From Moniliella sp. 'wahieum' (lineage: Eukaryota; Basidiomycota; Moniliellomycetes; Moniliellales; Moniliellaceae): a stretch of 64,000 bases of DNA. The stretch spans positions 62,001 to 126,000 of the forward strand of contig RSEE01000054.1 of the NCBI GenBank assembly GCA_003971905.1, written 5' to 3'. Positions 1,226-61,750 of this stretch are shown here, one piece after another; the first letter of the stretch is position 1; the number at the start of each line of letters is the position of its first letter. Under the pieces are notes generated by a model that was given only the letters and a program-made list of their open reading frames with translations, was not told where the DNA came from and did not search any database. The translations under genes were made by a program, and so were the position numbers.

Positions 1226-1283
1226 AACTAGTCACTAGTCACTAGTCACTAGCCAGTCACTTGTCACATGTCACTAGTCACTT
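1226..1283. repeat. TCACTAG heptamer array
   Basis: About five TCACTAG-type units (TCA plus palindrome CTAG) run in 7-nt register, then shift to TCACTTG, TCACATG and TCACTAG without losing the register. Member of the window-wide TSA-palindrome repeat class. Confidence 0.85.
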
Positions 1284-2214
1284 AGGGGAAGCATGGCTGT
1301 GAGAGCTGCTACCCCGCCGTAGCCGCAGTCTCTCGCCAATGCTGCTGCGCATCGCCAGCTATTGTCTTCTGTTCCCACTGCTTCCAGAGTGGTACAGTGT
1401 CAATTGCATGTCAATATTCAATCGATTCTTTGACTCTTTTTGTGCATATATACCATTGCTTAAGGCGCTTATAAGGCCTAATTACTAACTGTTGCTTTTA
1501 TTATGGCCTGCGCCTGCTTATACAACTCGTGTACGACAGGGACCTAGAGCTAGTAATAGCTGTTGCTCGAGCGATAGGAAATGGTGTGTTGGTTTGGGGA
1601 GCTATTGATGGTGGCTTGGGCTTTTCTGTGCCTGGCTTTCTGAGGCCGGGGGGAAATCGGACAAAAAGGAAGGCAGATTGTGTCACGCGCGCCACTGGAC
1701 AAGAAGTGCTCTCGTTGGGCCACTTGTGTTGTGGCGTAGAAAGGTTTGATGGGCTCTGGACCAATGGTGGCCAGCTTAATGTTGTTTGAGCCGCGTATCG
1801 CAGGCCGTGGCACCGCCGTGGCCGGGGGGGCGCACGTCCTGGTTTTAGATATACTTTCTGAAGCGTTCCTACAGTTCATGCATTTTTGGTCCATTAGTAA
1901 CCATGCCGCCAAAAGCTCACATTGAACTGAGAGATCGATTGGAGAGTTGCCGCCAGGGAGGGCCAAGAAAGTTTTGCACGCGTGATCTAGCCCGAAACGA
2001 ACCCGGTGGGGGGGCAAGGCAGGGCAAGGCGGTGTATAGGATAGAAATAGCGCAGTCTCTACTGCCTCTCCGCCAGTTATTTACCGCCTATGGTATGGTC
2101 CTGCGGCGCTTAATCGTCCCAGACAAGAGGCGTCCGTTCCCTGGTACATACATAGTCATCGATGCGATCATAGATATCGAGTGCTGATGCACTGATGCAT
2201 GATACTGAGTACGA
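1284..2214. other. Unassigned intergenic stretch
   Basis: Open frames on both strands are below 160 codons, lack domain similarity and do not join across plausible introns. TCAATAT followed by TCAATCG occurs near 1408, an isolated pair of heptamer-like words that may be chance. Confidence 0.4.
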
Positions 2215-2262
2215 GTTCCTGATTACATTGAGTAACTCAGTACTCAGTACTCAAAATCTCAG
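2215..2262. repeat. TCAGTAC heptamer array
   Basis: Units of TCAGTAC (TCA plus palindrome GTAC) with degenerate neighbours. Similar GTAC-type units recur near 4.5 kb and 5.65 kb. Confidence 0.75.
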
Positions 2263-2363
2263 ACTGAATACCGAAGGCTTGAAGCTAGCTTGAGATCTTG
2301 AGAAGAAGCTTGAAGCTAGCTAGCTTGAAGTTCTTCGACGGGTTGAACGTTGAGACGTTGAGG

Positions 2364-2488
2364 AACGATGCATGATCAATGATCCATGATGCATGATATT
2401 CGTGTAATGCATGATGCATGATACATGATGCATGATGTATGCATGATGCCGCATGCCAGTACATCACATGTCACATGTTACATGTGGG
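2364..2488. repeat. TGATGCA / TCACATG heptamer array
   Basis: A run of TGATGCA units (palindrome TGCA) with variants such as TGATCAA and TGATCCA in the same 7-nt register. After a short break it is followed by TCACATG units (palindrome CATG). Confidence 0.85.
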
Positions 2489-2549
2489 TGTCAGCGCAGC
2501 GCAATCCCGCATGTACCTGAATCACACGCGCCGCACAGGGGATATTCGA

Positions 2550-2675
2550 TAGTCACTAGTCACTAGTCACTAGTCACAAATCAGTAATCGATTAATCGCT
2601 AGTGCCCTAGCGACTGCTGAAGCGCTGAAGCTTGAAGCGCTCAGCCATCACCGGTCACCCGTCACGTGTCACGCC
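2550..2675. repeat. Mixed heptamer arrays (CTAG, GCGC, AGCT, CCGG)
   Basis: Four TCACTAG units at 2552-2577. From about 2615 the units TGAAGCG, TGAAGCT and TGAAGCG follow one another, then TCACCGG and degenerate units. Several palindrome types share one 7-nt register here. Confidence 0.8.
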
Positions 2676-2737
2676 GCCGCTGTCTTCTACCTAAGTTTCT
2701 CCCCTATATTCTGTCTTTTTAGTACGGGCCTCCTCTG

Positions 2738-2800
2738 AAGATGCCTGAGGCGGCCTGAGGCCTCAGGCCTCATCTGAGGCATGATGGACTTGATGGGCTT
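2738..2800. repeat. TGAGGCC / TCAGGCC heptamers
   Basis: TGAGGCC and TCAGGCC units (palindrome GGCC) adjoin in both spacer forms. GGCC-type units recur in short form near 13.69 kb, 44.08 kb and 55.04 kb. Confidence 0.7.
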
Positions 2801-3368
2801 GATGTAATCCCCCCCTAAATTTGGACCGTCGTCATCGAGCGTCATCGCGTCATCTCTCTTTTTAGTAGCTTGATAACCCTACATTTTCCAAGTAAGAAAT
2901 GAGGCCTGACGCGTGACGCCTGAAGGGCCGGAGGATCTAAGGCACAAGGCACAGGTCTGAGGGCGAGAGGCCTATAATAGACCTCCACACATTATTCTAA
3001 AAAGTTCAACCACGAGAACATCGACCTGGCATTTGCTGCATCGTAGCCAACTGTGGACGCCATCAGATGGCCTCTAAAAGAGCTGTTCACGAACACGGAG
3101 AGTGAACGAAGTATCCAGTGGAAGCGGTATCGGTTGTGGAGAGAGAAGACAGGAGGAGACGCGAACATAGGAGCACAAAAGGAAAGCGCAGGTGCGCCCC
3201 CCAAACACTGAGACCTACTGCCAGCGTCGCACAGAGCCTGCCTAGGTCAAGCTATCATCAACATATCACCACAGACTATTGCTTTGCTTCTCTTGAGGGT
3301 TTTCATGAATCTCCTTTTGGGTTCCTCTGGTCCCGCGGCATCACATATGAGTCACATCGTGATATCGG

Positions 3369-3490
3369 TGTGTCAACGTTCAGTACGTTCAAAACGTTCA
3401 ACGTTCAACGTTCAACTCACCTTTTCTCTTCAAGCTTCAAGCTTCAAGAGCTTCAAGCGAGCTTCAGGCAAGCTTCAAGCTTCATCAATC
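3369..3490. repeat. TCAACGT then TCAAGCT heptamer arrays
   Basis: TCAACGT units (palindrome ACGT) at about 3372-3415 give way to TCAAGCT units (palindrome AGCT) at about 3430-3480, with AGAGCTTCA-type variants. Confidence 0.8.
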
Positions 3491-3569
3491 ATCGATCAAG
3501 CCTCAAGCTCTCAAGATTCAAGAGCTTCAAGGCGCAACCTCTGAGGACGAGTACTGGAGTTCGAACCTT

Positions 3570-3660
3570 CGGCTTGAAGAGCTTAAAGCTTGAAGCTTGA
3601 AGCTTGAAGCTTGAAGCTTGAAGAGCTTGACTAAGCTTCAGCCTAAAGAGCTTGAAGAGC
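3570..3660. repeat. TGAAGCT heptamer array
   Basis: At least five TGAAGCT units in tandem (palindrome AGCT), then degenerate copies. The same unit appears as pairs near 49.43 kb and 49.62 kb. Confidence 0.85.
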
Positions 3661-3939
3661 TGGAACGTTAGCTTGAACCTTATCGAGCGTCGCTTCTCCG
3701 TCTGTCGCTTCCGTCCAAGTGGCTGACTGTTTTGCAAGGAAGGGCTTCCAAGTGCGCCCCCTCCTCTGTTCGAGCCGTTGGGGCTAAGACTTAGCGCCCT
3801 TAGCGCTATGCTAAGGACAGGGACAGTGCGGGGCTTGAGGCGTGAGGCTGGTGGGGCGGGAGGGCGTGGCCTAGCGTGGAATTGGCGGCGAATTGGCGTG
3901 GCGCGTTGGAGCAGCAGGTTGGAACCTGTTGGAGTTGAT

Positions 3940-3978
3940 GCATGATTAATGATTAATGATTAATGAAATTAATGATTC
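3940..3978. repeat. TGATTAA heptamer array
   Basis: Three TGATTAA units (palindrome TTAA) followed directly by one TGAAATT (palindrome AATT). This shows that AT-only palindromes also fill the slot. Confidence 0.8.
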
Positions 3979-4024
3979 CTGATGCAATGCATGGTACATT
4001 GTGAAGCTTGGCTGAGGCGCTGGG

Positions 4025-4165
4025 GTTACCGGTTACCGGTGATTCGATCAATGATCTTTGACGTGTGACATAGTGACACGTGGCATGATGCCATGTGTCA
4101 TGCATGTCACCGGTGACCGAGAACCGAGAACGAGAACCGAGAACCGAGAACCGAGGACCGAACGG
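4025..4165. repeat. Mixed CCGG heptamers and ACCGAGA tandem
   Basis: TTACCGG/TGACCGG-type units, then near-heptameric words containing CATG, GATC and ACGT, then a tandem of about six (ACCGAGA) copies, also period 7 but without the palindrome. Confidence 0.7.
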
Positions 4166-4397
4166 CAGGGGTCTGCGGCGCGCATTCCACAGTTCCGGCA
4201 CACCCTTCTCTTTGCACGCACGTACACGAGAAGAGACACATTAGTACTTTTACGTACCGGCTGTACCCGTGATTCTTGCACCGGCGACCGGTGACATGAG
4301 TGACAGAGCACCCACGCCTGTTGCCGGCATCATGCATCACACATACATCCAGTCTCAGATCTGATTTCCCACGTGTCACGCGCACGCCCCTATCATC

Positions 4398-4452
4398 TAC
4401 TGTCACATGTCACCTGTCCCATGTCCATGTCACATGTCACATGTCACATGCA
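4398..4452. repeat. TCACATG heptamer array
   Basis: TCACATG units (palindrome CATG) with a few degenerate copies in the middle. Confidence 0.85.
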
Positions 4453-4776
4453 ATACACACCAGTACCCAGTACTGAACTCAGTTGAGTTACTCAGACTGT
4501 GTACTAAGTGTTGAATCTCAACACTCAGTTACTCAGTACGCGAAGGGCTCTGTACTTGGTACACTTCTGCTTGGCATGACGCATCACCATCAGCATGCAA
4601 TCGGCATGTGCATGATAGTTGCCTCTGCGTCTAGAAAAGACAGCCATTTGCTTTTGGGCGGGGCAGGCCGATGCCTGAAAGTTGTGGCAAAGACCAACAT
4701 GTGCATGTTTGTGATTCCGGGCGCGATCATCGATCCATCGAAGACTGGCTGAAGACGAACAGAACGACAAGAGAGA

Positions 4777-4803
4777 GATGATGCATGATGCATGATGGTG
4801 CAT
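4777..4803. repeat. TGATGCA heptamer array
   Basis: Two perfect and two degenerate TGATGCA units (palindrome TGCA). Confidence 0.75.
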
Positions 4804-5462
4804 GCGGAGTATCCCAACAGAGAAGAAGCAAGATACAAAGGAGGAATAATAGCCGTTTGTAAGGAGAGGCATGATCCACTTGAACGCAACTGCTATTGAC
4901 ATGATGTCTGTGTAGTTGCCATGACGTGCCAACCCAGCGAGAACCTGTAAGCTGTGACCCTGTAACATGATGGTGGCAAAACACACATTTCAGAGCAAAG
5001 CAATTTAAAGCGCGTCTCATCTCCAACAACGTCTCGTCTCGATTTCCTTGCTCATCGGGTATATCTCGCCAGTAATCATCATGCATCACGAGTCACTAGC
5101 TTCTTTTAACCTTCTTTCTATCCGGCGGCCCGCCTTCCTTCTTCCCGTCCGGCCTTGGAGCGCGCCTGCATGAGAGCCTATTAGGCATGGTACATACGGC
5201 AATTTTTGGCCACGGATCTTCGCCGAGACAAACTGTGGTGTCCTCTCTCTGAAATCCCATTCCGGCGTCCGGCCTCAATATTCAATGCACGCCAAGAATA
5301 GAGCCTCTGGTTCTGTAGGCGTGCAAGGCCACACCTTTGTATCATCAGCCCCAGCTGCCCCAGCATGTTCAGCCAGACTCAGCCTGTCTATTTATACAAT
5401 AAGCGCCCACACCCGCTCACATGTCACATCCCAAACTACCCCACAGCCACAAAGATACGTGC

Positions 5463-5521
5463 AACATGTGAGACTAGTGACTAGCGTCATCAACTTAGTG
5501 GCTAGTCCGGCTAGTGACTAG
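5463..5521. repeat. TGACTAG-type heptamers, partly degenerate
   Basis: Units with CTAG in the palindrome slot, in the TGA orientation, separated by degenerate 7- to 9-nt spacers. Confidence 0.55.
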
Positions 5522-5639
5522 GACTCCGCTCCGCGGGCCTATTAGAAGAGACTTTATCGAATGCTCCCCCAGAGAAAGGGACCCACCAGAGCCACACTAG
5601 AGCCACCCTGGGCCCTACTATCACCACTGGCCGTTCCTG

Positions 5640-5800
5640 TTCCCAGCACGCAGTACACTCAGGCCTTAGGCTACTCACGTACTCAGTACTGAGACTCAGT
5701 ACGCACCGTTATTGAACGATGATCGATGAAGCTAGCGATCGATGAAGTTCACTAGAGTGAAGCTTGAAGTCACTAGTCACTAGTCACTAGTCACTAGGTC
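5640..5800. repeat. TCAGTAC and TCACTAG heptamers
   Basis: GTAC-type units at about 5648-5705, a short GATC/TCGA-rich stretch, then four TCACTAG units at 5768-5798. Confidence 0.8.
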
Positions 5801-6171
5801 ATCGATAACCGATCATCGAACACTGGTACACACATCTGTAGGTGACCGGTGACTTCCTGCGACGAGCGACCGATCTAATCCATGGATGGAATGCAATCCG
5901 AAGTAGCACATCCTGTACCGTGTGTGAAATGTGACGCGTCACAGCCTGACGAGTGCCGAACAGGGCCGTGTCTTCCCTTCTCACATTCAGAATCTTCACA
6001 CCTGTCGTTCCAAGGGGGGGGAAAGGGGCTGCTAGGATGGCTGCAGTCTCTATCTGCTCTCAGGCATCAGGGAGGCCTCAGGCGCTCAGGCCGGTCAGGC
6101 CTCGGACTCTGTCCTGCCATTTCGCCTTTATAGACTCTTCCCCCCGTCGTTCGCGTTCACGCATCACGCCC

Positions 6172-6203
6172 ATGATGACATGTCACATGTCACATGTCAC
6201 GAG
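6172..6203. repeat. TCACATG heptamer array
   Basis: Three TCACATG units (palindrome CATG) flanked by TGATGACA-type words. Confidence 0.8.
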
Positions 6204-7539
6204 GATATCAAGTGATTGGGACAGCAAGTGTCCGGCCGCCCCTCGGTCCAGAAATCCCCAAAACACACTCCCGAAGAGCTGGGCAGGCAAGTGTCGTGAC
6301 CAAGAGTTAATTCGTTTAGCATTGAATATTGATATCTGAGATTGATCGATCGTCTTGGTGGCTGCTGGCGGAGGTTGGGGTGGGGGCCTGTAAGACTCTG
6401 GGTGTTCACATGTCACACAGTGGGACTGAGTAGTAACTGAATACTGAGTCTTTGTACTGCGAGGTCCACACCAGAGGCGCCTGATGCTCTTAGGCCCACC
6501 AAACAGTGGCGGTGCGGGCCAGCAGCGCTTGCATAATGCTCTGTAAACACGTAACGAGAGTGTGGCGCCCCCTTTGAGGCTGAGCGCGCTGTGAGCGCTG
6601 TGAGCGTTGGACACCGCTAAAGTGCACCGAGCCCAGAGAAGCACCCTCGGTCCTGAGTCTGAGAATACTGAGCCCTGGCCTGGGTAGTACACCGTAACAG
6701 CATCCCATCCCATACTCTGCCTCTTCGATCGCCACTTCTCAGATCTCAGGGTCTGTGTCGGTTGGTGTGGGCCATGCTGGGCCATGCTAGGCCACGCGTC
6801 GCACATGCATCGGCCGCCTATTGTCACCATGCCACATGTCATGCCACCGTTCAAGACAGGCACTTCCCCAGCCGCAAGAGCATGGGCGCCTTGCCCATGT
6901 CACCGGTCACCACACGCCCCGCCCAGCGCAGCGCTGGCTATATGCCGATCGACTGGTTCGCTGCCCTAGACGCACAGTCCGTGCTTCCACCCACAGCCTC
7001 CACCCTCCATCGACGCTGGCGCCCGCTTCCCTCTGTCCGTCCTCGGTGGCCAGCTTCTCCGCCGTCTCTCCCTTAAGAGCGTAAACACTCGAGGCCAAGT
7101 CGGGCCCGGAAGAGCAACCAGGGCCTCATTGGGAGCAGGGTCCAACGGCCAACCAACATTGAGAGTCTCTCGCCGTCGGAGTTTTCAAAGGGCCTACGCG
7201 CTCGTGGTTTGCGAAGCCGCCGCCAAGTTTTCCGCCCTCTGCTCTCTTGAACACCGATTTGGGGCACTTTCTTTGTTTCCGGCCTCTTCCGCGCCAGTTG
7301 AGCACGTCAACCAACTGGTGAGGCCGCCCCTTCTTCACCTCGCCCATCTCCTCCTCCTTCTCGTTTCCTCAGTCGCCTCGCACGTAACGCGGCGATCCAC
7401 CAACGCCTCCATGGCCCGCCTCCCCATCCTCCTCACGTCTCTCCGCGCGCTCCCAACGAGACACTCGCGACACAGCATGACCTTGAGCGTCCCGACCAGA
7501 GTCGACACGCAAAACCCACCAGCAGTTCATGGCCCCTCA
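6204..7539. other. Upstream region of zinc-cluster gene
   Basis: No conserved coding signal recognised. Pro/Ser/Leu-rich open frames from about 7.1 kb may be 5' leader or N-terminal exon of the regulator that follows, but no start codon can be fixed. Confidence 0.4.
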
Positions 7540-10036
7540 ATCGGTTAGGCCTTCTTCCGGGACCTGTGGGACCTGCTTCCGAGCCTACCGCCAACCTACC
7601 ACTACGTTTGCCGCCGCCTCTGTCCCAAACTCTCTCCAGGCCGCTGCACCCCAACTCAGCCTTGCCACAGACGACACCGCTGCAGCACACTTATGTATCC
7701 CCACCCCCTGGCCCCCCTGTCTCGCAATCGCCTCCTATCACCCTCGCTCCTCTCCGGTCTCGTCCGCCTTGGGGCGCCCACTGTCTCGACCGCCTCTTGC
7801 CCCCTCCCTTGAGCCGAACCGAGGTCGATCAGCCACCCAGATTCGACTTCCTCCCCTCCATCACCCACACCCACCTCGACACGACCTCGAAACCGATCCT
7901 AGACTCCCTCCTTCATCCTCCTCCACTCACCATCTGAGCACTGGCTCCGAGTGGACACGCCCAGGCCCGATTAGCTCGGCTCCTGGACAGCACATGTCGG
8001 GACAGGAGGCTGAAGAAACAAGATTCCTCCAACCCCGTTCCTCGGATCGCGCGTGGCCTGCATCAGGCATCTTTCCACTCCACCTCAGCGCTTCCTTCTC
8101 TCTGGCACCCCTCTGGCCGAGCAAGACCGATAGGATCTTCCCCGTATTCGCGGGAAGAGTATCTCTTTCGTACCGAGCACGGTGGAGCCAGTGTTGGGTC
8201 GGAAGTGGCCACCTCGATTCGTGAAGCAGAACCTCGCGGGTTTGATCAAGGTTCTTCATTAGCACGGATCCTCAACCCTTCCGTCGCCCTCCGGGCTCTC
8301 CTGATGATCCCGAAGCCACAATGTCCGGATCGGCCAGCGCTGTGCACCGCGACTCTGGTTCTTCTGCTGTTGCTCTTTCCATTCCCCAAAGTACTGCCAC
8401 CTCATCGGCCTCCGGAGGGGAAAAACGCCGAGCAGGCCGTCGGCGCCAATTAAGTACTTGACAGACCAACCCCTTTCTTCCCAAGGTAAGGAAGCAGCCA
8501 AGTCGAAAGATGTCGAGGTGCGCAAGAAGAGTCAAAAGGGCCTGCGTGTATTGCAAACGAAGCCATATGCCCTGCTCTTCATTGCGCCCGTGCGTGCGAT
8601 GTGTCAAACGAGGGATTGCTCACCTCTGCAAGGACGAACCTTTGTCAAACGAGCCCGCTCGTCTTCCCCCACCGAAAAGCGGATTTGAGCCCAACAGTTT
8701 TTCGCCTCAACCTCGGCAACGGATGAACGTAGGGTCGCCCAACCAGATCCCGGCATACGAGCCAAGCCGGAATCAGAAGAAATGCCAACATTCGCTTCAA
8801 TCATTCCTGCCGCGTCTCTGGTGGAGACAACTGGTATTACACCTCCGCCGAGACGGACTCTAACAGCCAAGAGCCCGATGCGCGCATTGGCAATTCCCAT
8901 TTCGTTGATTACCCGTGTGGGCGCGACCGATCTTGACTTTTTGCCTCAGGATGATGGCGGACAAGGCGAACGGATCTTGAATCGGGCCATTTCGGATGCC
9001 CTGCATGTCTGCGAACTCTTGTCGGGTCAGGATACTGTTCTAATAGAAGCGATGCTTGACAGATCCCTCACCTTGTCACGAGTAAGTGCCATCTCCTTTA
9101 CCCGTCTTTCCTTCTATCCCCTCCATCCACTCTCGTTTCTGAAGGGCTAATCATATGCATCTACAGACAAGAGTACAGCATGCCTATGCAAAAAAATGTT
9201 GCAGCATCACTCTCCTTTGCGTCGCCTACTTCGATATCCCCAAAGTGTTCTGGGAGAGGAAGCACTAACGTTGGTGGCTTTGCATGTGGACTGGGGCGAT
9301 GACTTAGGCCCATGGGGGTACGGTCAGTTGGCCATTTGGCTCAAGCATGAGCTTGAGGACAAGATGCGCCAAGCAGATTCGACCGTGCCTTGGGAACATC
9401 CGTCTTCGATACTTGCGCCTGAGTCTGTCTCTGACGGAGGAACAATTGGAATCAGCGCAGCGATCCTTCCATACCAGCCTGTCCCATTATCGTCTCAATC
9501 TCTTTGACTCGGTACCGCACGCTATGATTATCGTTTCTCGCACCGGTGTCGTCTTGGCTGGCAATCGACGGATGTGTGATTGTCTTCATTTGGCACCTCA
9601 GGCGATTCATCGGGTCAGTTGCTCTACTTTGATCTGGTCGCTCGTCCGGACGTGATGCGCGTGGTGGAGGCATACGCTTCCTCTGTTGTCTCCTTCCGCC
9701 TGGATCAGCTCCGGCCAGGCGACCATGGACTTGGCCTCAGGTGGTTCCTTTACCTTAACTCACGACTTTATCGTGGACCGACTGGCTTACCTCCATGGCA
9801 CCCAAGCCTGGAACCACAAAACCATGGACTATCACCGCGGTGCCAACCACGAACTTGAAGATGGTTCTCCTACCGTTGTGCACTTCCGCGGCCTGGTCAC
9901 CCTCCAACTCGTCGGTGACTGCTCGGGCATTCCCCCTTTGTTGCTGTTTATGTCGTTGTGCTATCTTGAGGCCTTCCCCCTTATACCACTTGCACTTTGG
10001 TATACCGCGCTCCACCCCCAATTTCTTACCCCTTGA
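7540..10036 (+). CDS. Zn2Cys6 transcription factor, AcuK/ERT1/RDS2-like
   Basis: Likely a nuclear regulator of gluconeogenesis and non-fermentable carbon use, by similarity to the AcuK/ERT1/RDS2 family. The zinc cluster at 8543-8629 reads C-x2-C-x6-C-x5-C-x2-C-x8-C, and the words CKRSHMPC and CVRCVKRGIAHLC are typical of this family. A Pro-rich segment (7.54-7.93 kb) precedes it. A PAS-like segment follows around 9.50-9.60 kb (LFDSVPHAMIIVSRTGVVLA). A GT-AG intron is visible at about 9085-9166. The start is uncertain, and the reading frame changes several times, including a stop between the Pro-rich part and the zinc cluster. I read these as sequence errors or unplaced introns, but true decay cannot be excluded. 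The family call rests on the zinc cluster and PAS order and is fairly firm; the carbon-source role is inferred. Confidence 0.7.
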
Positions 10037-11440
10037 GTATTGAGTGCTGGGCTATTCTATATGTATACCACTCCTTCATATGCGTGGCGGCTTTTTGCCA
10101 CCTAATATTACGCGAGATATGTAAGAAAAATGGAGACATACTACGTTGGACGCATGAATAAATGAATGACCTTCAGCGCATCATATTGGCTGCGACCCAG
10201 GCGTGACGCGTGAGCGACGATAGGAGGGAACTGGTGCCTGCCCTGCCCGCCCTTCAACGACGGCAGTTGGCCGTTTCCACATTAGCACGCGCGTGCGTGC
10301 GCCCACCATCGCCCGTAGCGAACCGTTCAATCGGCGATCAAAGCCGATAAATTATTTGTGGGTTCCATTGTTTCCCCCCGCCAGGGAGGAGGGGGACCAT
10401 ATTTTTCAACTATACTAATGAGGAAGAGCTGGGTCATCGCATCGACCGTCGGAGCCTGGAGAGGCGAGGGAGTGGCCGCCAGTCCGTGGGAAGATACGCG
10501 TCCTTTTCCCTTGCCAACTGCTTCGCCATCTGAGCTTGTCGGCCTCGGATTGGGTCTGTTGGACCTGGGCCACATCCGTCGCTTGGTCTCGGTGGCAATC
10601 AGCGCATCACACAACCTTTGGTCCGAGACGGGCTTACTTGTACCCCACTGGAGTGCCGGGCAAAAGTGCCATGCAGTTGGGATTTTGGCTGTTGACTCAT
10701 TTGTATGTGAGCGTCGAGGGGCGATGGAGGGTGAGTCACACTGATCAGACGCACCATCTCTCAATCGACTTCTATATCCGATAACCCCTACTATATAGGA
10801 GCGGGGCAACCCCCTGGTTGCCACATGTGTATGCGCACAGATTCCCGCTAGAGCACTCAATCAAAACAGTACCGCGTGAATTAATCCATCGAAAGTCCAG
10901 AGCGTTGCATTTCGGGCCTGTTGCAACCTGCTGCACCTCTGGCGTGTTGAGCGTGTGCCCCGTAAATTATGGGTTCCCTGCGGCCGTTCGAGAGGAAGCG
11001 GGTGAAGGGATTTTTGGTCCGTGGCGAGCCCAAACTCTCTCAAGCATTCTGGGATCTTACGGATTCACATTCCAGCTCTGATGGCTCTGATTATTAGTGA
11101 TTCAGACAGGAAGCTTCCAGCATATATTGATGTGTGCCTCCTCCCCCCCCGCAAGCACCTCTCAAGGGCCGTATTTTTGCTAAAACCATGGATGTCTTCG
11201 GGAGCTGTCGCGTCGTGGACTTGACACTAACACTTTCGCCTAGTGTCGTTAGCAAGACGATATCGGCAGTAAGGGATTATTGAGTGGAGCAAATGGATGG
11301 GAGGGGGGGGGCTACGTCACAGGAGGGAACGGAGGTCAGGAAGCGGAGGCCGCGCGCACGCGCGGGCTGCCCTCTGCCCCAGTGCCCTGGGGCGCACCGC
11401 GGCAGCCTGGGCAAGCTGTATATCTATGTCAGTACGTGAA
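10037..11440. other. Unassigned region between regulator and NOP2
   Basis: Two overlapping open frames of 128 (+) and 177 (-) codons lie at 10.33-10.86 kb. Neither shows a known motif, and I cannot tell which, if either, is real. An isolated TTAGGGTTAG near 11.45 kb is not a telomere array. Confidence 0.35.
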
Positions 11441-18181: not shown

Positions 18182-18347
18182 GGTGCGCGCGGCTTTGGTG
18201 GAGATGGTGATGGAGACGGAGGCAAGACGGAGTTGGCGCTGGCGGTGGGGCGATGGTTGATGCTGGCGACGACTGCCAGGACACTTGTCCAAGAGGGCGG
18301 CTATGTCACATTTCATTGTTGCATTTTGGATCTGGCCTAGCGAGGCG

Positions 18348-43130: not shown

Positions 43131-44983
43131 AGCGCCATAGATAGCGAGACGCAGGTATGAGGAAAGTCAAAGACGATTAGCCTAAAGAGGAGCAGACACC
43201 TGCATATAATGGTCCGAGGGAACCAATGCCGACTATCCTAAGTGACTACGGAACATATCATTTTCAACAGTGTAGTGTGACGCTGCATAGGAGGTAGGGA
43301 CGGAGGAGAATGCAAAGAAAATGTCGGATACTCGCTGATCGTGTATTGCTGAGTGTGCCCCCATAAGCAAAGGGGATGGAGCGCATTCCACAAGGTTACA
43401 CTCTAAATCACACCTCTTGAAGAGACAAGGCGCGATGACAGTAGGGGTGGGGGTATCATTTGGCAAATGAGAAAGTGCGCCACGGCATGGATGGAGCGGG
43501 GCAGTGGGGGGGCTAGGGGGGGATATGCTGTGGAAGGGAGGGAAAGGGGAACAGGACGTGCAAACAGGTTCGGAGCAACAGTTTTTGAATCGTGACAAAG
43601 GTGGGTCGTATTAGCTGCGGCCGTCTTGGCACCCTTCAGGGTGACGCGGGCGATTGAGGGGATGGTGAAGACTGGCATGGCAATGGCTGCAGTTGCCTGG
43701 ATGGACAAGGTGCGATTCGGTTTTGCACACGGGGCACTCGATGGAGCTGTGTGTGGTGCATAATGTGATGATGCAAGATATGATGGCAGGGGCATTGTGT
43801 GCGTGTTGGTTAGCGGCATGTGGCCCGGAACCAACGCGAGATGCGAAGCAAGAGAAGACATACAAGGCCATGGTGGAGAAAGAAACGGCTTGGAGAAGAG
43901 AAGGCGACAAGAGGGGGAACGGAAGAAGGGGAAAAACGTTCGCCACAGAAGACAGAAACGCCTGAGTGTTTTATATAACCGCGGGGGGGGGAAGAGGGGC
44001 GGAGGGGGTGACGGGAAGAACCATGTGACATGTCACATCATGCATCATCCGACAGGCGTACCTCTCTCATCCTCGCCTGAGGCCTGAGGCCTTTTGTGGC
44101 TCCGAAGAACAAAAGGGCGTGGGGTAACCGATAAGGCAAGGGTAACTGCGTAGAGTGAAACGCATGGCGCTCATGCGCTCATGGCGCGCGACGGCAACCA
44201 AGCGTGTGACATGGGGATCTGGCGCGGGGCCAACATGTAGGCCGACATTCGCCCCTCTCGGATCCTCGATCCCGCTCCACCGAAGCAAAACAGGGCGCAG
44301 GCACGGCCGCCCACCCAAAGATGGCCACGAGCGCGACTAGGTGGGAGGGGTGGAGCAGCGACGTTGACGTCACCAAGCGTCGCGCTCCCCGCTGTGTGGC
44401 AGCGCGGGATGGGGCCGGGCAGGCGTGTGGCGCGCGCAGAACATTAGTAACCCTGAGCGCCTGAGCCGCCATGCCATGCCGACACTCCGACGGAAGCGCC
44501 ATCAGAGCCCCCATGCAAGCGCGCTGGACTGCCCTGCAGTGCCGCCGTGTGGAGCGGCGCCAGTGTCCCAGCTGAAACAACGTGGCGGCGCTTCCCAGCG
44601 GCGCCGAGGCGGCCAGGAAAATAGGGCCGAGAGGGCGGCGGCGGATCCCCGATCATCGATCACTAGTCACTCGACCACGACCAAGATGGGAAGCACATAG
44701 CGCGGGTTGTGTTGCAAAGGACCGGCCCCTCTGCAGGGCGCGGGACGCGTGAGTGTGCCATGCGCATGCCACACGTCCTGTCAAACTCCCATGGCCGAGT
44801 TTCCACCGAGACGTGCGGTGCACCACACGAGGAGCGCGCCGAGCAAGCGGGGCTGCGGCCATGATGCATGATGCATGATGCCTGACGCACATGAGGATGC
44901 ATTACAGCACACACACCGGGAGAGGCAGCCGTTCAGACGACCAAAACGTATGCCAACCAGACGCCAGAAGAGGGAGGGGGGAG
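43131..44983. other. Unassigned region
   Basis: A minus-strand frame at 43.6-43.95 kb contains two CxxC pairs (ECPVCKTESHL, NCSHCH) that could be a zinc-binding segment, but no full domain is visible. Short heptamer words (TCACTAG, TCATCGA) occur at 44.65-44.68 kb and TGATGCA units at 44.86-44.885 kb. Confidence 0.35.
44860..44885. repeat. TGATGCA heptamer array
   Basis: Three TGATGCA-type units (palindrome TGCA) about 100 bp before a solo LTR. Confidence 0.75.
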
Positions 44984-45226: not shown

Positions 45227-45231
45227 GGGAG

Positions 45232-50757: not shown

Positions 50758-51474
50758 CGTCTCCATCTCCGTCTACTTTTACGTTTACGTCTTGCTCGGC
50801 TCCTCGCTGGGGTGGGGCTGTGGTGGTGCACTGGAGGCTGACAGCTGTTGGCCAACAGTGGGAGTCATGAAAGACAGTTCGCTGGTGGTCAGTCCATCCG
50901 TTCCGAGGCGGGATGGCTTCTCAAGTAAAGCCGAGATCGTCTCCAAGGCTGCCCAAGATCGGGTTTGCTCGCCATATAGCCTCCTGCCCTCTGTTCCCGT
51001 CCTCTCGTCCTCCTGTCCTCTCCTTCTGCGCGTTTCTACGTGAGACCGACGTTCTCATGTCCCTCTTAGCCCCAATGGCCACTGTGTATGTAGTACATGC
51101 ATCTCGTGCGCAGCACCCGAACCCATCTTATAGGCCCGAGGTTGCCAGCCAGTCATACTTACTACTCGCTCGTCGTTTCCCCTGGCCGAACCAGTTTCCT
51201 TCTGAGGGAGCAGAGTAGACGAAACCTAGAGTAGACAGTGGGTGCCATCACTACGCTTCACTTCGATCGTCTCGGAGAACCCCATCGGGAGTCAGAGTCA
51301 CAGGCGGGGGAAAAGATGACCAAAGCAAGGCCGAATAAGCAGGCGAGGGTTGGCCACGGATGGGTAGAGGCAGTGGGGGAAGGATGGTAAAAAATAGAGA
51401 CCAGAGGCACATTCCCTGCGAGCCTACCCACCTCTCCGGCAGCGACGGTCCCCTGCAGCCACAGCGCCGCCATG
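50758..51474. other. Intergenic
   Basis: 3' region of the dehydrogenase gene and downstream part of the minus-strand neighbour. No gene recognised. Confidence 0.4.
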
Positions 51475-54278: not shown

Positions 54279-54520
54279 CGTGGAGCAACAGGTGGCGGTG
54301 GTGGGCTGGGCGTGGGTGGTGTTGTGCGCAAGATAAATCCCGCGCGGCCGACTAAACGCCTCGACTTGTGCTTCGACCCGAGGCAGGCGGGATTGAATAT
54401 TGGTTGCCTTGCGAGTGCCCGTCCAGCGCGTGCGGCTTCCCATTTCAAGTTTTCTGCGGGTTGCAGTTTTCATGCCAATCAGCGACCACCTGTCCCGAGC
54501 TATCCAACCCGGTGACCAAC

Positions 54521-54620
54521 GGTCGGATGGTCTAGCTGGTCATGACGTACGCTTCACATCCTGGAGCAACAGGTCTCGTTGAGACGCGTAAGGTCCCCGG
54601 TTCGATCCCGGGTTCGATCA
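54521..54620 (+). tRNA. tRNA-Val (anticodon CAC) with intron
   Basis: Acceptor arms GGTCGGA and TTCGATC pair over seven positions with two G-U wobbles, discriminator A. D stem GTC/GAC, anticodon stem TACGC/GCGTA, loop TTCACA plus C with anticodon CAC at 54555-54557, T arm CCCGG-TTCGATC-CCGGG. A 26-nt intron (54559-54584) sits one base after the anticodon, the normal place in eukaryotic nuclear tRNAs. A T run at 54621-54625 would terminate RNA polymerase III. Confidence 0.93.
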
Positions 54621-54625
54621 TTTTT
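54621..54625 (+). terminator. RNA polymerase III terminator
   Basis: TTTTT directly after the tRNA discriminator base. Confidence 0.75.
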
Positions 54626-54983
54626 GCTTTAGAACACCCTGCCGTAGCACAACTATGCCCTGGCATTTCAACATTTCGATTTGGGTCGCCTCTCTGCCAG
54701 TGCTTTTCGCATCACGCGTGCGGCTGATCACGCATCTTTTGATCGATGCGGCGCTGGCCTCGAGTCGATCTGGCACTCCGCCCATGGCTCTCTCCGAATC
54801 GTACCATCATCTCCCCATGCATGCATGGCACGACACAACACGACAGGACACGTGCTCAGGAGATTCGTTGGATAGCGTGTGGCTGGCTACCTCCAAGTCC
54901 AGCAATGGATACTTGATCCAGGGAGTATGTGCGCCGGTGGTGGCGTTTGGTTATTCTGCTCTTTTCCCGTTGAGACGGATGCC
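54626..54983. other. Spacer between tRNA and solo LTR
   Basis: No gene recognised. The LTR lies about 360 bp downstream of a pol III gene; Ty1/copia elements of some fungi favour such sites. Confidence 0.4.
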
Positions 54984-55208
54984 TGTTCAGCCACCCGGTG
55001 GTTCGTGTGCTTTGGTCAACTACGTCCCTGCAATTCCTCAGGCCTCAGGCCTAGGAGTTCCGTTGATTTCTCTCCCGTGTTTTCCTTGTTCCGTGGCCCC
55101 TGGTGGCGATTCGCTGGTTGTTCCTCTGTAGTCGTTGCTGGTTGGCTTAGACCACCACCAGTGCGATTGCATCGCCCTCGAAGACAATCAGGACTCCGGG
55201 TCTCATCA
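54984..55208 (+). mobile_element. Solo LTR, copia-related (copy B)
   Basis: 225 bp beginning TGTTCAGCCA and ending TCTCATCA, flanked by a perfect 5-bp duplication ATGCC (54979-54983 and 55209-55213). Clearly homologous to copy A at 44984-45226 in the same orientation, and in its 3' half to the LTRs of the 36.7-42.2 kb element. No internal sequence remains. Confidence 0.85.
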
Positions 55209-55213
55209 ATGCC

Positions 55214-55889
55214 TGTGGCAAAGGCCGGAGGCCCCGGCCTCTCAGTCTGAGGAGTCAGCCTGACTAGTGACTAGTGACTATTGACTGGGTGGGGTGGTCT
55301 TTCCAACTCTGGGGTGTCTGTGAATAGAGGACGAGGCCCAAATCCCGCCCCAAGGCTTGGTTTGGCGAGAGACTTACATACGCACACGGCCAGGCGGAAC
55401 GAGGTTATTACAGTGCGAGTCGTCCGTCCCCTATAAACGCAGTGGCCCGACACCACCCAAACTCCACGTATTAGTAGCGGGTGTGCGCTGAAGTGCCGAG
55501 GCACACTGAGGTCTGAGGCTGAGGCCGTCTGGGTCTTCTGAGGCCTGAGGGGACGAACGTTTGTCGATGTTGGCCAAGGACAAGTATCACTGGTGGCTCA
55601 TCTCATCGATTGCTTGCTCGAGCTCAGCAGCGCACAGCCAGCGCCTGCCATCGCCCCGCCCGGCCTGTGTGCCAACCGTGACCGTCACACTAGCAGCGCC
55701 GCACTGCACCACCGCTCCTGCACGGACCATCCTGTTTCGAAGGTACCTGCGTACGCCTAAGACCCTGCGCATCTGGCCTGAGGCGCCTGAAACCCAGCTT
55801 CATCAACTGCATCATCTCCGGTTTGCGGGTGAGATCTTTCCTGTCATGCCCCGGGGTAGCCCAGTTCGCCCCCCCACCACACCATCGCC
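55214..55889. other. Intergenic
   Basis: TGACTAG heptamer units at 55259-55282, and TGAGGCC-type words near 55.5 kb. No gene recognised. Confidence 0.4.
55259..55282. repeat. TGACTAG heptamer array
   Basis: Three units of TGACTAG (palindrome CTAG) in the TGA orientation, about 50 bp after the solo LTR duplication. Confidence 0.75.
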
Positions 55890-56929
55890 ATGTCTTCATC
55901 CCAACCCAAGTCGGCCCCGTCGTCTGAAGACCCTGCCCGACTAGCCGCGCTGCACCAACGCATTGCGGCGCTCGAAGCCGAGGTGGCTGAGCTCAAGCGC
56001 ACGCTCCCTCCGCCAGCCAAGGTGGTCGCGGTGCCCTCCCCGGTTCCCCTGCCGCCCCCGTCTCCTCCTTTGCCGCAGCCCTGCCCCAGCCGGCCCGCTT
56101 TGCGCCTAACTGGGATCAGCAAGTTTCCACGTTTGCTGAAACAGGTCTCAAGCCGGAGCTGGTGTCGGCTCTGCGTGAGAATGGGTACGACTAGCATGCT
56201 CCCTCTTTCGTCCGACACTGAGGCCCCGTTCTTTATTCGTGTTGCTGACTCCCAATTCCCCTTCCAGGTTCATCAAACCGACCGCGCTGCAGTCAACGGC
56301 CATTGTGCCGCTGATTCAGGGCAAGACGATGCTCTTGCAGTGCCCGGCTGGCGGTGGCCGTACAATCAGTTATGCTCTGAGTGCGCTTCAAGCAATTGAC
56401 CCCAACAGCAAGCACGTCCAAGTTCTCATCCTGGCTGCCTCTAAGGAGCGAGCCGCACAGATTGTCCACGATATTCGTGCCTTGTCAGGTGGTATTTGGG
56501 GGGCCAGTGATTCGGACGATGACGTTGCCAGTCGAGTGTACTCTTGCTTGCCAGGCACCAAGACGGACACTGACCGCCATGCCCTATCTGCCCGCCCGAA
56601 TTGCGTGGTGGGCACGCCTGGACGGGTGTTCCATTTGCTGGACCGAGCGCATCTGCCCATCTCGCACTTGCGCCTGCTCATTGCCGACGAAGTGGATGAC
56701 TTACTTACCACCTTCCGCCAGCTCGTGATGGAGATTATGCGCTTCCTCCCCTCCCCGGACCGCGGACCATGGCTTACAGACAGTCTGGGGGGCGGACCAC
56801 TTTAACAGCAAACTCCTCTCCGGCGCACTTCAGTTCGCTCCGAACCCGACAATGTGTGCCGTTCGACGCAAGGATGGGGTCTGGCGCGTGGTCACGGTCA
56901 AGAAGGACGCTGAGCAGGCGAAGATGTAA
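55890..56929 (+). CDS. Single-lobe DEAD-box-like protein with degenerate motifs
   Basis: Related to the eIF4A-type RecA lobe 1. A helical N-terminus (ARLAALHQRIAALEAEVAEL) and a Pro-rich linker precede the helicase start (NWDQQVSTFAETGLKPELVS). An 83-bp GT-AG intron at 56185-56267 joins in phase to FIKPTALQSTAIVPLIQGKT. Motif I reads PAGGGRT, with Arg where the ATP-binding Lys should be. PNCVVGTPGRVFHLLD matches motif Ib, and motif II reads DEVD (IADEVDDLL). A SAT motif is not evident. Instead of a second RecA lobe the protein continues HFNSKLLSGALQFAPNPTMC and ends VTVKKDAEQAKM at 56929. It is therefore unlikely to be an active helicase. Two or three frame changes near 56.1 and 56.77 kb. Function unknown. 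Confidence 0.7.
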
Positions 56930-57650
56930 GGGCGTATCTTGCACCCAGCCATGTGCTATTCCCAAGCCTGTATCATGCACAGCAGGGCGTTTTTCAGTGT
57001 CTGCCTACTATTTCTTTTGCTACAATCATAACGCGTAACTATCCTTCATGTTGGCGAGGAAATGCTGGTTCGATCTGGTAATCTGCAAACGGTGAATACA
57101 GCTACACTGCATTAGCTGATCTACCTGATAGTGCTTCGATCTGTGTGCGGCCTGAATACTAGTTCGGATCTTCCAACAGTGTTCAGACTTGGTCGACCGT
57201 AAGATCCTCATCTAAAGACTCGTCCAGTAGGTACTTTGGCGTGCAGGCATGAATGTTCCGGTCTTCTCCAGGAGCTTCACGGCGAGTGGTCTCCGCGATC
57301 AGGCATGCTATCACAACGAAGTAAGCGTCATACACGAGCAGCTACAGCACGTCGACCTGCTCCGGTCATGAAGTTGATGCAGCTCAGACTTTCCAATTTA
57401 CCCAGCTAACCAGCCTGTTCAGACGGACGCAGGACACAGGCTACCCAAGGCTACCCGGACCTTCTCGACATGGGCCCAAGGAATGCTTGTCACCCACAAT
57501 GACCACTTGGTATGCACCCCATTATGCCCGGTCCAAGTTAACCATTCTTCCCTGGCGTGCCCTTGCCAAAACACCTACACAAGTGTGCAACAACAATGGT
57601 CCGCGATGAACAGGTTGTGTATGCATATAAATCGTCCAGCACCATTCACG
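56930..57650. other. Intergenic between convergent genes
   Basis: No gene recognised in this 3'-to-3' spacer. Confidence 0.5.
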
Positions 57651-58690
57651 TCAATGCTTGCCGCCGGCCTTGATCATGTCCAAGAACGAGTCTTTCGATG
57701 CAAGACTCTTTTTCGTCCCTGGTGCCAGCGGGGGCTTTCCCATAACACTCCGCACCAGTCCAGACGTCTCCTCCTCCTCTGGAGGGGCAGCCGCTTGGCG
57801 CTGGGAGTCACGGATGACATTGAACAGCTTAACGACACCACGTTGTGCCACTTTGCGTAGCCGCTTCTCGTACCCACCCGAACCACCTTGGTCATCCCAT
57901 GCGGCTAGAGCGTCATCATCCAAAGGATTGCACCCCAGCGCAGGAGTAAGGGCGCCATCATAATTGACCACCTGCCCTGGTGGACCCCAAGAAGAGATGA
58001 CGTCCTTTACATGGGTCAATTCAAAAGCCTTCTTGCGCTCGGCTACCAGCTCCCGTTCCGCCTTCGAAGCAAGTGATGCCTTGGCGCCTGCACGATTGAT
58101 GTGCGGGCAAGAGCAAGGATGGGTCCCTGGGTCGAAGTAGTTTGTGCAGAAGGGGAAGAGACTCGAGCACGCTTCGCTGGCTGCGCAGGCACTTCGTGCG
58201 CTTCATCCTCCTCAACCTGCGAATCGGGGTCGTCCGCCTCAATACCCTGGTCAGAAGACGGCTGCGACCCTCCTCGTCTTCGTGGGCTAGAGCCACGGGC
58301 ATTGGCGCGGACGACCCGAGAAGGTCGAGAAGAGTGGCACCAAAAGCGGTCGGAGACACAGCGCGGCGTTTACGTTCTGTCAACATGATGGGGTTAGTGG
58401 TGTAAATTTAACAGGTAGTAGGTGAGTGGTGAAAGCATACTCTGGGTTTTCTTGCTCTTAGGGGCAGCATGGGCGGCACGAATTTCGTCCTCCGTGTCTG
58501 GTTCCGACTCGCTCTCGGACGCGCTAGAGTCTGAATCGGCATCGTTGTCGCTAGCAGGGTTCCGTTGTGGGGGCGGCCGGCGGCCAAGGGTGGAAGATGG
58601 CCTGGACGGGGCCAGCGCGCATGGAAAACTTAGACTTTGGTTGGGCCTGTCACCAGTGGGGTGTGAAGAGCGGGGGTGGGGCTTGGCCAT
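57651..58690 (-). CDS. RRP15: Rrp15-like ribosome biogenesis protein
   Basis: Nucleolar factor needed for pre-60S maturation. Start at 58690 gives [20 protein letters not shown], then an acidic Ser/Asp/Glu stretch ([20 protein letters not shown]) and an intron around 58.38-58.44 kb. Middle words are [20 protein letters not shown] and [20 protein letters not shown]. The diagnostic C-terminal Rrp15 region is [20 protein letters not shown], followed by the usual end [14 protein letters not shown] at 57651. At least two frame changes in the central acidic part. Head-to-head with VPS4, with 306 bp between the start codons. Confidence 0.88.
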
Positions 58691-58996
58691 GGCGGCAACT
58701 CAGAGGTGGTGCTTGTTGAAGCTGTGGATGTGCGTGGGTGCCATCAATTCATTCAAATGTCAATAACAACAAGTGGGGATTCCGAAAAAAAATATGGGAG
58801 GCGGGGGCGGAACGAATGGGTGGAATCGCGGGGGATGTACCCTGAGGTACCGCGAATTGCACCGACTGTCGATAGTCGCCGGACCCACTATCGCAGCCCA
58901 ATCTGGATGCGCCAGGGCCAAACGACTGCGTGGCCAATTCAACACCCAGCCGCCACTCCCGTCTCCACTTTCGTTGCCGCTACCTCCGTGTCTGTC

Positions 58997-60444
58997 ATGT
59001 CTAACAAGATCGACGTGCGTTTTTTCCCCTTCCTCGCATCCTTCCTAACGCCCTCACCCTCTTTTCTCTCCTGCACAGAAAGCGATCGAGCTCGTCCAGA
59101 AAGCGATCGAGGAAGACACAAAGCAGAACTACGAGGAGGCCTACAAGCTCTACCAGAATGCGCTCGACTTTTTTATGTTGGCACTCAAGTACGAGAAGAA
59201 CGACAGGCTCAAGACATGATCAAGAAAAAGATCACCGAGTACCTTGACCGTGCCGAGCAACTCAAATCCTATCTTGCCAAGCAGAATGAGGCTCAGTCCC
59301 GCCGCGCCGTTGGTGCCGATGGCGGTGGCAAGTCTGTCGGTGGTACAACGGGTGGAAAACACGATGACAAAGACGGTGTGGATGAGGAGACTAAGAAGCT
59401 CCGGGCGGGCCTTAGCTCAGCCATTCTTTCTGAGAAACCCAACGTACACTGGGACGACATTGCTGGTCTGGCTACTGCCAAGGAGGCGCTGAAAGAGGCC
59501 GTTATTATGCCCATCCTTCTCCCTCACCTCTTTACAGGAAAGCGCACTCCTTGGCGTGGTATTCTTCTTTACGGGCCACCAGGAACTGGTAAGAGCTTTT
59601 TGGCCAAGGCGTTGTAGCGACTGAGGCCAAATGCACCTTCTTTTCGGTCAGCTCGTCCGACCTGGTGAGCAAGTGGATGGGCGAGTCGGAGAGGCTGGTC
59701 AAGCAGCTCTTTGCCATGGCTCGCGAGTCCAAACCATCAATCATTTTCATCGATGAGGTCGATTCTCTTTGCGGGACGCGAGGTGAAGGAGAATCGGAGG
59801 CCTCTCGTCGGATTAAGACCGAGTTCTTGGTCCAGATGAACGGCGTGGGTAATGAGAACTCCGGCATCCTGGTCTTGGGTGCCACCAACATTCCTTGGGC
59901 TCTCGACATTGCGATTAAGCGGCGATTTGAGAAACGCATCTACATCCCTCTCCCGGACGTCCATGCTCGGCAAAAGATGTTCGAACTCAATGTGGGATCC
60001 ACACCTTGCCAACTGGCGCATTCTGATTGGCACCGTCTCGCGGTGGATACAGATGGGTATTCAGGATCGGATATTTCGGTATTGGTGCGTGACGCGATCA
60101 TGCAACCCTGCGCAAAGTGTCACGAGCGACGCACTTTAAGCAGATTCAGGCCCCCGAACGTCCCTCCCCAGAGGAACTGCGGGCGCAGGATTCGGACGGG
60201 CCTGAACCGGCTGAAACGGATTCGCATCCAGTAGATGAGGAGGTCACCACGCTCAGACATACTGGATGCCCCTGGGGACCACAGGCAGTGGAGAAGTCTT
60301 GGACCGAAGTTGATCCTACCGAGTTGATGGAGCCTCCGATCGTTTACGGAGACTTCGTCAAGGCCATCGCCTCCACGCCCCGACAGTTACACCGCCGACA
60401 TTGAGAAGCATGCCGAGTTCACTCAGGACGCCGGGATGGAGTAA
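58997..60444 (+). CDS. VPS4: Vps4 AAA-ATPase
   Basis: Disassembles ESCRT-III in multivesicular body sorting. MSNKID, a 64-bp GT-AG intron (59015-59078), then an MIT domain ([40 protein letters not shown]), linker, and AAA domain: [20 protein letters not shown], Walker A GPPGTGKS, Walker [13 protein letters not shown], sensor ATNIPWALD, and arginine-finger region [16 protein letters not shown]. The C-terminal helix DFVKAIAS and [17 protein letters not shown] end at 60444. Frame changes occur near 59.21 kb, 59.61 kb, 60.11 kb and 60.38 kb; the rest is strongly conserved. Confidence 0.95.
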
Positions 60445-61177
60445 GAGTATTCCCGGCCAACTAGATGCCCACCTACATTATATGTTCAAACTCGATTTAA
60501 GCAACACTGCCGTAGTAATGATATCTTGCAAAGCCCAAGTAGCACATATCATCCGTCAAAGTTCTCTGCCTAGTAAATGTGATCATTGTTGTCCCACGCT
60601 GTAGCGCACTCGTTGGCTGAACCAGCGAGCAGGTCCTCGAGGTCTTCGAGGGATCCAACAGCTGGGGAAAAGGGTATGCCACCAATCAGTCCTTCTCTCT
60701 AGTAGGGACGAAAAAAAACACCAGATCATGTCAATCATCATCAATCACAGTGAGCAGCATGAGCAAGAGTGGGGTGTAGGCCTGCTTTTCGACCAGATAG
60801 TATGTGTATATCAAGCCGATGAGTCTCGTACCGTGGCAGATCATCTCGAACATCCATCATTCCCATGTTAGTCCAACGGCGTTCCATGACTTCAAGCTTA
60901 CGGTTACGCGTTAACAAGCAAAACACACGCAGGATGAACGGCTCCGTTTAGACCCAGCGTTTCTTGTCCCAGCCTTAACCTCGTCAATGATATGGTTGCA
61001 GTATAGACATGTCGATGAGCTACAGAGAGGCTAGAGAATAGCCCTGCCCTCCAGGAAGGATATTGGAAGGAATACTACACCTGAGGACAAAAGCTTGGGC
61101 TAGACTAGTTGGGCGCGGCCCGCCACACTTCCTGATGATTGAGATCGCAGAAGAGCACACAAGACAAGCAGGACGAG
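60445..61177. other. Intergenic
   Basis: No gene recognised. Confidence 0.45.
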
Positions 61178-61750
61178 GGTACTCTCAACGTTGGGTGTTG
61201 AGTGTTGAGTGTTGAGCCTCAACGTTGAGCGTTGAGCTTCGCTTCGCTTTGAATACCACTGGTGGCGTATATAGTGGTGCCTCATATATCTCAGTTTTCA
61301 GTGTACTCAGATGGAGTGCTATAGACTGAACTCAATAATCGGAGGCCACCATTTAGTACTTGGCATCTGTCGAGTACGTTGAGTACGTAGAGTCCAGATC
61401 TCAGATCTAAGACATTCATACATTCACGCGTCACGCGTCACGTCAGATCATCGATCATCTCGATCATCGCCCATCGTGCATCGATCCTTCCTGTGTGATC
61501 GATGTGATACAGGATTCAGTATGTGTGACGGATGAGGTCGATGAGGCCCTGAAGCTGCCGTGAAGATCTGAGATCCTGAGATCCCCGAGATCCTGAGATA
61601 TCTCGTCTCTCAGAATCTCTGGCCTCTCATGCTCAGGTGCTCAGGCTAGGCCTTGTGGTCCTAGTACTACGTTCGAATGCACTTTTCTGGCCGTCTCCAG
61701 GGCATAATAGTATGTCATTGATGTCACTTGTCACATGTCACACGTCATAT
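61178..61750. repeat. Cluster of heptamer arrays (ACGT, GATC, TCGA, CGCG, CATG)
   Basis: Tandem GTTGAGT/TCAACGT-type units at 61.18-61.24 kb, TCACGCG and TCATCGA units at 61.43-61.48 kb, TGAGATC units at 61.56-61.61 kb, TCACATG units at 61.73-61.75 kb. TCATATA occurs near 61.285 and 61.748 kb. Confidence 0.75.

Follow-up and report, generated by a model that had tools for sequence, protein, structure and literature searches.

Transposon footprints are usually studied locus by locus, and tandem repeats with a heptameric unit, such as the short tandemly repeated repetitive (STRR) sequences of cyanobacteria and other heptamer microsatellites, have a period of 7 and lie between genes. Here we describe a repeat class with the same period and the same intergenic placement, found in a 64,000-nucleotide stretch of the basidiomycete Moniliella sp. 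'wahieum' (contig RSEE01000054.1, positions 62,001 to 126,000, or G000:C54:62001-126000; hereafter the window) and in other parts of its 69.5-Mb, 223-contig genome. Its units join a TNA triplet to a four-base palindrome, and they are probably scars of break repair. For neither the cyanobacterial STRRs nor the other heptamer microsatellites do we know of a palindrome or footprint rule. In V(D)J recombination RAG leaves flush hairpins on the flanking DNA that are opened by Artemis, and the target duplications of Transib and RAG are 5 bp long, unlike the 7 bp found here.

The closest likeness is to excision footprints. In the passages of PMC5873905 that bear on Ac/Ds excision in yeasts and plants, P-nucleotide footprints arising from hairpins are established, and the Artemis-related Pso2 affects Ac/Ds footprints in S. 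cerevisiae. As in those passages, where hairpins and end joining are responsible, the units described here consist of a duplicated target whose joint carries short inverted (P) copies and shows small losses. However, the palindromes of Ac/Ds, a hAT element, centre on the complement of the element-adjacent base, whereas ours are even-centred and flush, and the usual hAT duplication is 8 bp (7 bp in hAT7) rather than 7 bp centred on TNA. The fungal DNA transposons hAT7 and Kyakuja also make 7-bp target duplications, although the relevant passages of PMC12730594 describe no footprints for them and no TNA preference. At V(D)J coding joints, as the opening of the abstract of PMC3528771 has it, P nucleotides span one to three base pairs, a further likeness. 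Among the papers listed in literature searches, titles and abstract openings contained no recognisable description of such a repeat class or of genome-wide footprints.

A frequent class of palindromic heptamers

Counts were made in the window, in a 264-kb sample (the window plus 20 stretches) and in a 314-kb sample (the window plus 25 stretches of 10 kb, four of them from the window's own contig), with short fetched stretches besides. The preliminary description of the window had reported that T(C/G)A plus a four-base palindrome recurs with period 7, and this pattern is real: the centre is self-complementary in 95 of the 179 TSA-NNNN-TSA strings of the window (S, C or G) and in 377 of the 964 TNA-NNNN-TNA strings in 314 kb. 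With just one outer base correct the centre is palindromic in 194 of 1,977 or 202 of 2,013 cases, and with neither the outer T nor the outer A in 548 of 8,390. Runs of (TSANNNN)2+ in the window contain 109 palindromic units among 295, where 1 in 16 is expected at equal base use. Identical TSANNNN pairs start there at 28 palindromic versus 2 non-palindromic places, a comparison of the kind that had been proposed as the check on the pattern. Different palindromes do alternate in register, as had been described, with two of them adjacent at 32 places versus 2.3 in Markov simulations. All 16 palindromes occur in the window as single TSA units, which chance also yields, and the claim that every one is represented holds at that level; with TSA on both sides the number is 14 of 16.

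Among the exact tandem arrays of the 264-kb sample (at least 2.7 copies; for periods 4-6 also a length of at least 18 bp), 57 have period 7, whereas each of the remaining periods between 4 and 12 has 0-24. Of the 57, 45 deviate from their own complement by a single base. Period-7 arrays of at least two copies number 202 in the 314 kb; 118 of them are palindromic, and a T-N-A centre is present in 113 of these 118 (94 TSA and 19 TWA, with W for A or T). Genome-wide, TSACTAG x3 gave 273 + 260 (overlapping) matches and its reversed control 0. The arrays are real, but they are not the main form: single units of about 12-14 bp outnumber them, with a direct repeat typically of 5-6 bases, that is, TNAxy-y'x'-TNAxy. 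The statement that almost every short tandem array has the TSA-NNNN form was too broad, since rows of period 6, 9 and 12 are abundant elsewhere in the window.

Within the window, 68 of the 95 TSA-flanked palindromic units lie between positions 800 and 7000 and the others are scattered; the 250 kb outside it contain 222 units. Stop-to-stop open reading frames (ORFs) of at least 150 aa are depleted in units, with 79 in 203 kb (0.39 per kb) versus 233 in the 111 kb outside them (2.1 per kb).

A base-by-base rule

In the 377 palindromic TNA-NNNN-TNA strings, the flanking Ns carry the same base on one strand 312 times (CC 131, GG 138, AA 21, TT 22) and complementary 32 times (CG 16, GC 12, TA 3, AT 1); the unit is therefore a direct repeat and not a dyad protein site. 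Near-identical copies give its rule. The event turns a heptamer D = NNTNANN into D + P + D, with P an inverted copy of one or two bases of D's own end, and one copy of D usually drops as many bases as P adds, for a net gain of 7 bp. Because P copies the end of D, the NNNN consists of NN and its own complement, and is created by the event. The common generating process suggested in the preliminary description was the right idea, and it can be stated base by base; this rule is well supported. Its centre is TNA and not strictly TSA, the earlier form surviving as a preference for C or G (223 of 253 reconstructed targets), and the outer two bases show no strong preference.

We scanned the 314-kb sample for D, followed by the inverted copy of its last p bases and by D minus its first t bases, excluding symmetric heptamers, and compared the counts with Markov sequences and with the mean over 15 other letter pairs in place of the T and A of TNA; among the hits of these pairs are the same elements read in a shifted frame. 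Class (p = 2, t = 2) was observed 180 times versus 1.6 in Markov sequences and 12.3 for the other pairs, the highest single pair reaching 39. The corresponding figures are 39 versus 0.6 and 2.1 for (2,1), 23 versus 0.1 and 1.5 for (2,0), 36 versus 0.6 and 5.4 for (1,0), and 72 versus 1.1 and 22.6 for (1,1), with 48 for the highest single pair. Inverted P nucleotides of one or two bases, in excess of both simulation and other-pair mean, are thus present at the junction, and the duplicated target around it shows small gains and losses both in these classes and at empty and filled sites. Copies with p = 3 are rare (2, 4 and 4 for t = 0-2 versus 0.1, 1.0 and 0.6), apart from class (3,3), which is the same string as (2,2), and p = 4 gave 0-1 cases.

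The palindromes are flush and even-centred (23, 38 and 180), a form in strong excess. In the lag-8 and lag-9 footprints D is symmetric about TNA and 7 bp long, and a 9-bp duplication losing one base per side would look identical. Other geometries were considered and set aside: a 3-bp TNA duplication around a 4-bp insert, by a repeat length that peaks at 5-6; an asymmetric 5-bp duplication TNANN, by the symmetric heptamer of the lag-8 and lag-9 forms; the terminal bases of a Tc1-like element as footprint source, by palindromes that copy neighbouring bases and not a constant end; and Ac-type odd centres, by odd-centred forms that stay near background.

Empty and filled sites

An intergenic island of the window has a second copy, L054 (Table 1), with 95.5% identity at aligned bases. 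Many units are common to the two. Among the 20 insertions or deletions (indels) of 5-11 bp between them, nine fit the rule exactly when reversed in the longer copy, including six of the seven 7-bp and three of the four 9-bp indels. Three of the nine are copy-number changes in existing arrays; the other six are new units, each opposite a single heptamer, and five of those six heptamers are non-palindromic. One site pair reads TCACGtac (empty) and TCACG-CG-TCACGtac (filled). Control letter pairs applied to the six new-unit indels gave 1 fit in 90 tests. With six of nine fitting indels at single heptamers, these are not microsatellites born by slippage, and the earlier exclusion of independent slippage stands for the birth of units; the copy-number changes could still be slippage. 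We infer that the longer, filled state is the newer one.

Rule-like indels without TNA or with one or two extra bases also occur in this pair, among them GAGCT-AGG-GAGCT near window position 3080 and GGTGACA-TGA-GTGACA near 4291. At window:3932-3975 a TTAA-type array faces a CCGG-type array at the same place in L054 (~3750-3782), through independent births or replacement.

Probable footprints in dispersed repeats

Two families resembling short interspersed nuclear elements (SINEs), whose empty state is known, allow the rule to be tested independently. We used a strict script that removes the footprint and then checks whether the family match improves; it found one TNA footprint copy per family, L072 (class 2,1) among 47 copies of the first and L074 (class 2,2) among 25 of the second, and 0 in both families with the 15 other letter pairs; the alignment of the second family is ragged, and its count comes from the strict script alone. 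By eye, L032 and L071 of the first family have CATCAGG duplicated with two P bases and one neighbouring base lost, along with further base changes, and L071 fits after one substitution. The diverged window copy win55 of this family likewise fits by eye with further base changes (Table 1), and its insertion was found in no other of the 47 compared copies. As for the other insertions of at least 4 bp in the first family, L037, L050, L055 and L065 show triplet-tract changes, L026 carries both a poly-T stretch and a 4-bp insert, and L039 has an insert of 4 bp.

A SINE-like family of 230 bp is represented at window:44975-45230 and 54984-55208, with at least 42 matches among those listed and 663 first-look candidates; two copies have flanking duplications of about 7-8 bp that are not TNA-centred.

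Table 1. Island, units, arrays and empty sites of the window, in window coordinates
Feature	Position	Strand	Remarks
Intergenic island dense in footprints	800..6900		second copy G000:C7:667501-674500 (L054), on contig C7
TCACTAG x3, spacer, TCACTTG TCACATG TCACTAG TCACTTA	1232..1284	+	array
Empty site	2309	+	L054: CTTGAAG-CT-CTTGAAG, +9, p=2, t=0
TGATGCA-type array	2373..2449	+	degenerate
TCACTAG array	2550..2577	+	
TGACGCG (7 bp) preceding TGACGcc	2907..2913	+	absent from L054; class p=2, t=2; target CCTGACG
TCAACGT array	3373..3416	+	includes in-register TCAGTAC unit
Empty site	3492	-	L054: +9, heptamer CTTGATC, p=2, t=0
TGAAGCT array	3580..3623	+	
TGATGCA-TGATTAA x3-TGAAATT	3936..3970	+	three palindromes, one register
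TCACATG array	4401..4450	+	
Empty site ctaTTAGAag	5542	+	L054: TTAGA-TC-TTAGAag, +7, target TATTAGA
Empty site ctacTCACGtac	5675	+	L054: TCACG-CG-TCACG, +7, target ACTCACG
TCACTAG array	5768..5797	+	
Empty site	5944	-	L054: +9, heptamer CGTCAGG, p=2, t=0
TGACATG TCACATG TCACATG TCACGAG	6176..6203	+	
TGATGCA array	44860..44889	+	
CCTCAGG x2 in diverged SINE-like copy win55	55036..55049	+	by eye; 3 neighbouring bases lost
TGACTAG array	55259..55279	+	
TCACGCG units and GATCATC footprints	61422..61468	+	classes (2,2) and (2,0)

Other repeats and genes

A Copia-type long terminal repeat (LTR) element occupies window:36661-42221 and L031:321-5848 in copies that are 99% identical, with terminal repeats of ~220 bp, and a more diverged repeat lies in L030. 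A ~0.9-kb repeat with ends TGTCACGGGC...GCCCGTGACA (window:62158-62992, L017:8696-9610, L028:414-1281 and L007:1-663) shows 5-bp duplications in L017 and L028, and its copies are probably solo LTRs. At L025:1854-4400 there is a young, abundant LTR-like repeat with a unit of 1.39 kb, repeats of 241 bp, TG...CA ends and a 5-bp duplication GTAAC; most of its listed copies are 96-99% identical, and two units share one repeat. Stretches of L023 recur at ~80% identity at G000:C18:599290-613050 and G000:C9:901049-917863, which suggests an old large-scale duplication or polyploidy. Second copies had been sought for L023 and L025, and what was found, these ~80% stretches and the LTR-like repeat, was of no use for dating units. 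A 2.4-kb stretch at window:57465-59909 lies between identical TCGACAT heptamers and has 13-bp inverted ends with one mismatch; it is not TNA-centred and possibly reflects chance.

A Pfam scan of 90 of 175 ORFs found Copia and another reverse transcriptase, and no DNA transposase among the 25 families listed out of 35; the 90 ORFs also gave single matches to SKN1/KRE6 and to the N-terminal HEAT repeat of EF3. These two matches and the fibrillarin agree with a fungal genome: among the named sequences of at least 120 fibrillarin relatives, Basidiomycota rank first by identity (up to 89%), and sequences without a name reach 98%. The hAT dimerisation, DUF659 and KDZ families had no match, which are weak negatives, and no Rfam family reached its gathering threshold in the window.

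Discussion

What kind of event would copy two bases, drop two others and still gain exactly seven? That P rarely exceeds two bases and that the palindromes have even centres argues for a 7-bp staggered cut with hairpins opened 0-2 bases from the tip. Given the hairpin precedent of Pso2 and Ac/Ds and the fungal transposons with 7-bp duplications, we read the units as excision footprints. It seems to us rather probable that they are repair scars from a TNA-centred 7-bp staggered cut, the formation of hairpin ends and their rejoining, with a footprint-leaving cut-and-paste DNA transposon as the likeliest source; the identity as transposon footprints is likely but unproven. A transposase-like enzyme would act on a 7-bp stretch centred on TNA, preferably TSA, as in staggered strand transfer that duplicates 7 bp, the flanking ends would be sealed into hairpins flush with the edge of the duplication, and a nuclease of the SNM1/Pso2/Artemis type would open them 0-2 bases off the tip before they are joined. 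Opening two bases off the tip would leave a two-base inverted copy (P nucleotides), joining through one strand would drop two bases of the other copy, and zwTNAxy would become zwTNAxy-y'x'-TNAxy, exactly +7, with the palindrome xyy'x' made by the event. Were both hairpins opened at the same offset and one strand joined, one side would gain p bases and the other lose p, hence the fixed +7. Arrays would represent repeated footprint events together with slippage, and since new scars carry in-register TNA sites, mixed palindromes would come to lie in one array. The empty and filled sites, the SINE-like copies, the class counts, the flush palindromes, the symmetry of D and the scarcity of units in long ORFs favour this reading, as does a partial DRMBL (SNM1/Pso2 family) match at C175:29408, with an E of 1.3e-4 (above the cut-off).

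Several observations weigh against footprints of a transposon. Plain tandem heptamers, class (0,0), are expected too, yet they are not TNA-specific (43 versus an other-pair mean of 99.7, with 2.0 in Markov sequences), and the mechanism leaves unexplained that losses seldom exceed gains. In the comparison of the island with L054, 11 of the 20 indels of 5-11 bp do not fit the rule; some come near it but have extra bases (GTGACATGA), others have no TNA (GAGCTAGG), and these non-TNA events are left unexplained. In the ~314 kb, about 0.45% of the genome, we recognised no transposon that makes a 7-bp duplication centred on TNA: in a search for inverted ends with a duplication the TNA matches fell in array sequence, with one candidate at L016:3061-3565, none of the repeat-family edges was TNA, and by eye the long inserts of the island pair contained no suitable element. 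The transposase families PF05699, PF18758, PF10551, PF04937, PF03184 and PF13359 had no match in the genome, in searches that were mostly of low sensitivity (just PF10551 and PF13359 matched in any control genome, and the other four failed in all).

The same cleavage and hairpin chemistry could also operate without a mobile element, if a recombinase, domesticated or of a kind not yet known, cut TSA-centred heptamers directly and end joining left the scars. The lack of a source element in the sequence sampled and of hits to the six transposase families speaks for it, as do the density of units outside the window and the events that differ between such similar copies; but 7-bp duplications symmetric about TNA are what transposon insertion normally makes, and the element search reached only that small fraction of the genome, with family searches that were mostly insensitive. 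We consider such a recombinase unlikely, and slightly more doubtful still its fuller version, in which an active element-free enzyme makes hairpin breaks at TSA heptamers by a RAG-like step and scars at about one per kb build the genome-wide palindromic class. Replication error is a different kind of source. Quasi-palindrome correction proceeds by template switching in short hairpins, and together with slippage it could make or perfect self-complementary heptamers; hairpin folding accounts for palindromes of any sequence, and the copy-number changes among the fitting indels agree with it. It does not account for a size that is always 7 bp, for the dependence on TNA, for inverted copies that usually stop at two bases or for the birth of units at single, mostly non-palindromic heptamers, and we judge this origin improbable.

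The preliminary description had itself suggested selection for palindromes spaced 7 bp apart, as sites for a dimeric protein. The position of most units outside long ORFs (233 of 312) would suit such sites, but the symmetry-breaking bases are equal and not complementary, nearly all palindromes are tolerated and some sites are empty in one copy of the island and filled in the other; we therefore abandon this proposal as very improbable. That the units are an assembly or sequencing artefact has a negligible chance of being true, given those common to the island and L054 and their depletion in long ORFs.

The process behind the scars is strong and recent, because the sequence outside the window contains 222 units per 250 kb and the two copies of the island show several differences per 6 kb. 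It would be due either to an active low-copy element with a long history or to a cutter that works independently of any element. Extrapolated to the genome, the count outside the window corresponds to roughly 60,000 units, about one per kb. Footprints would account for a repeat class that had looked inexplicable and point to a recently active cutter, and they suggest that break repair, instead of slippage, can be the seed of simple tandem repeats. Each scar would record the distance between a hairpin's tip and its opening and the way in which the ends were joined; if this reading is true, the Moniliella genome is an extensive in vivo record of the repair of hairpins in a fungus.

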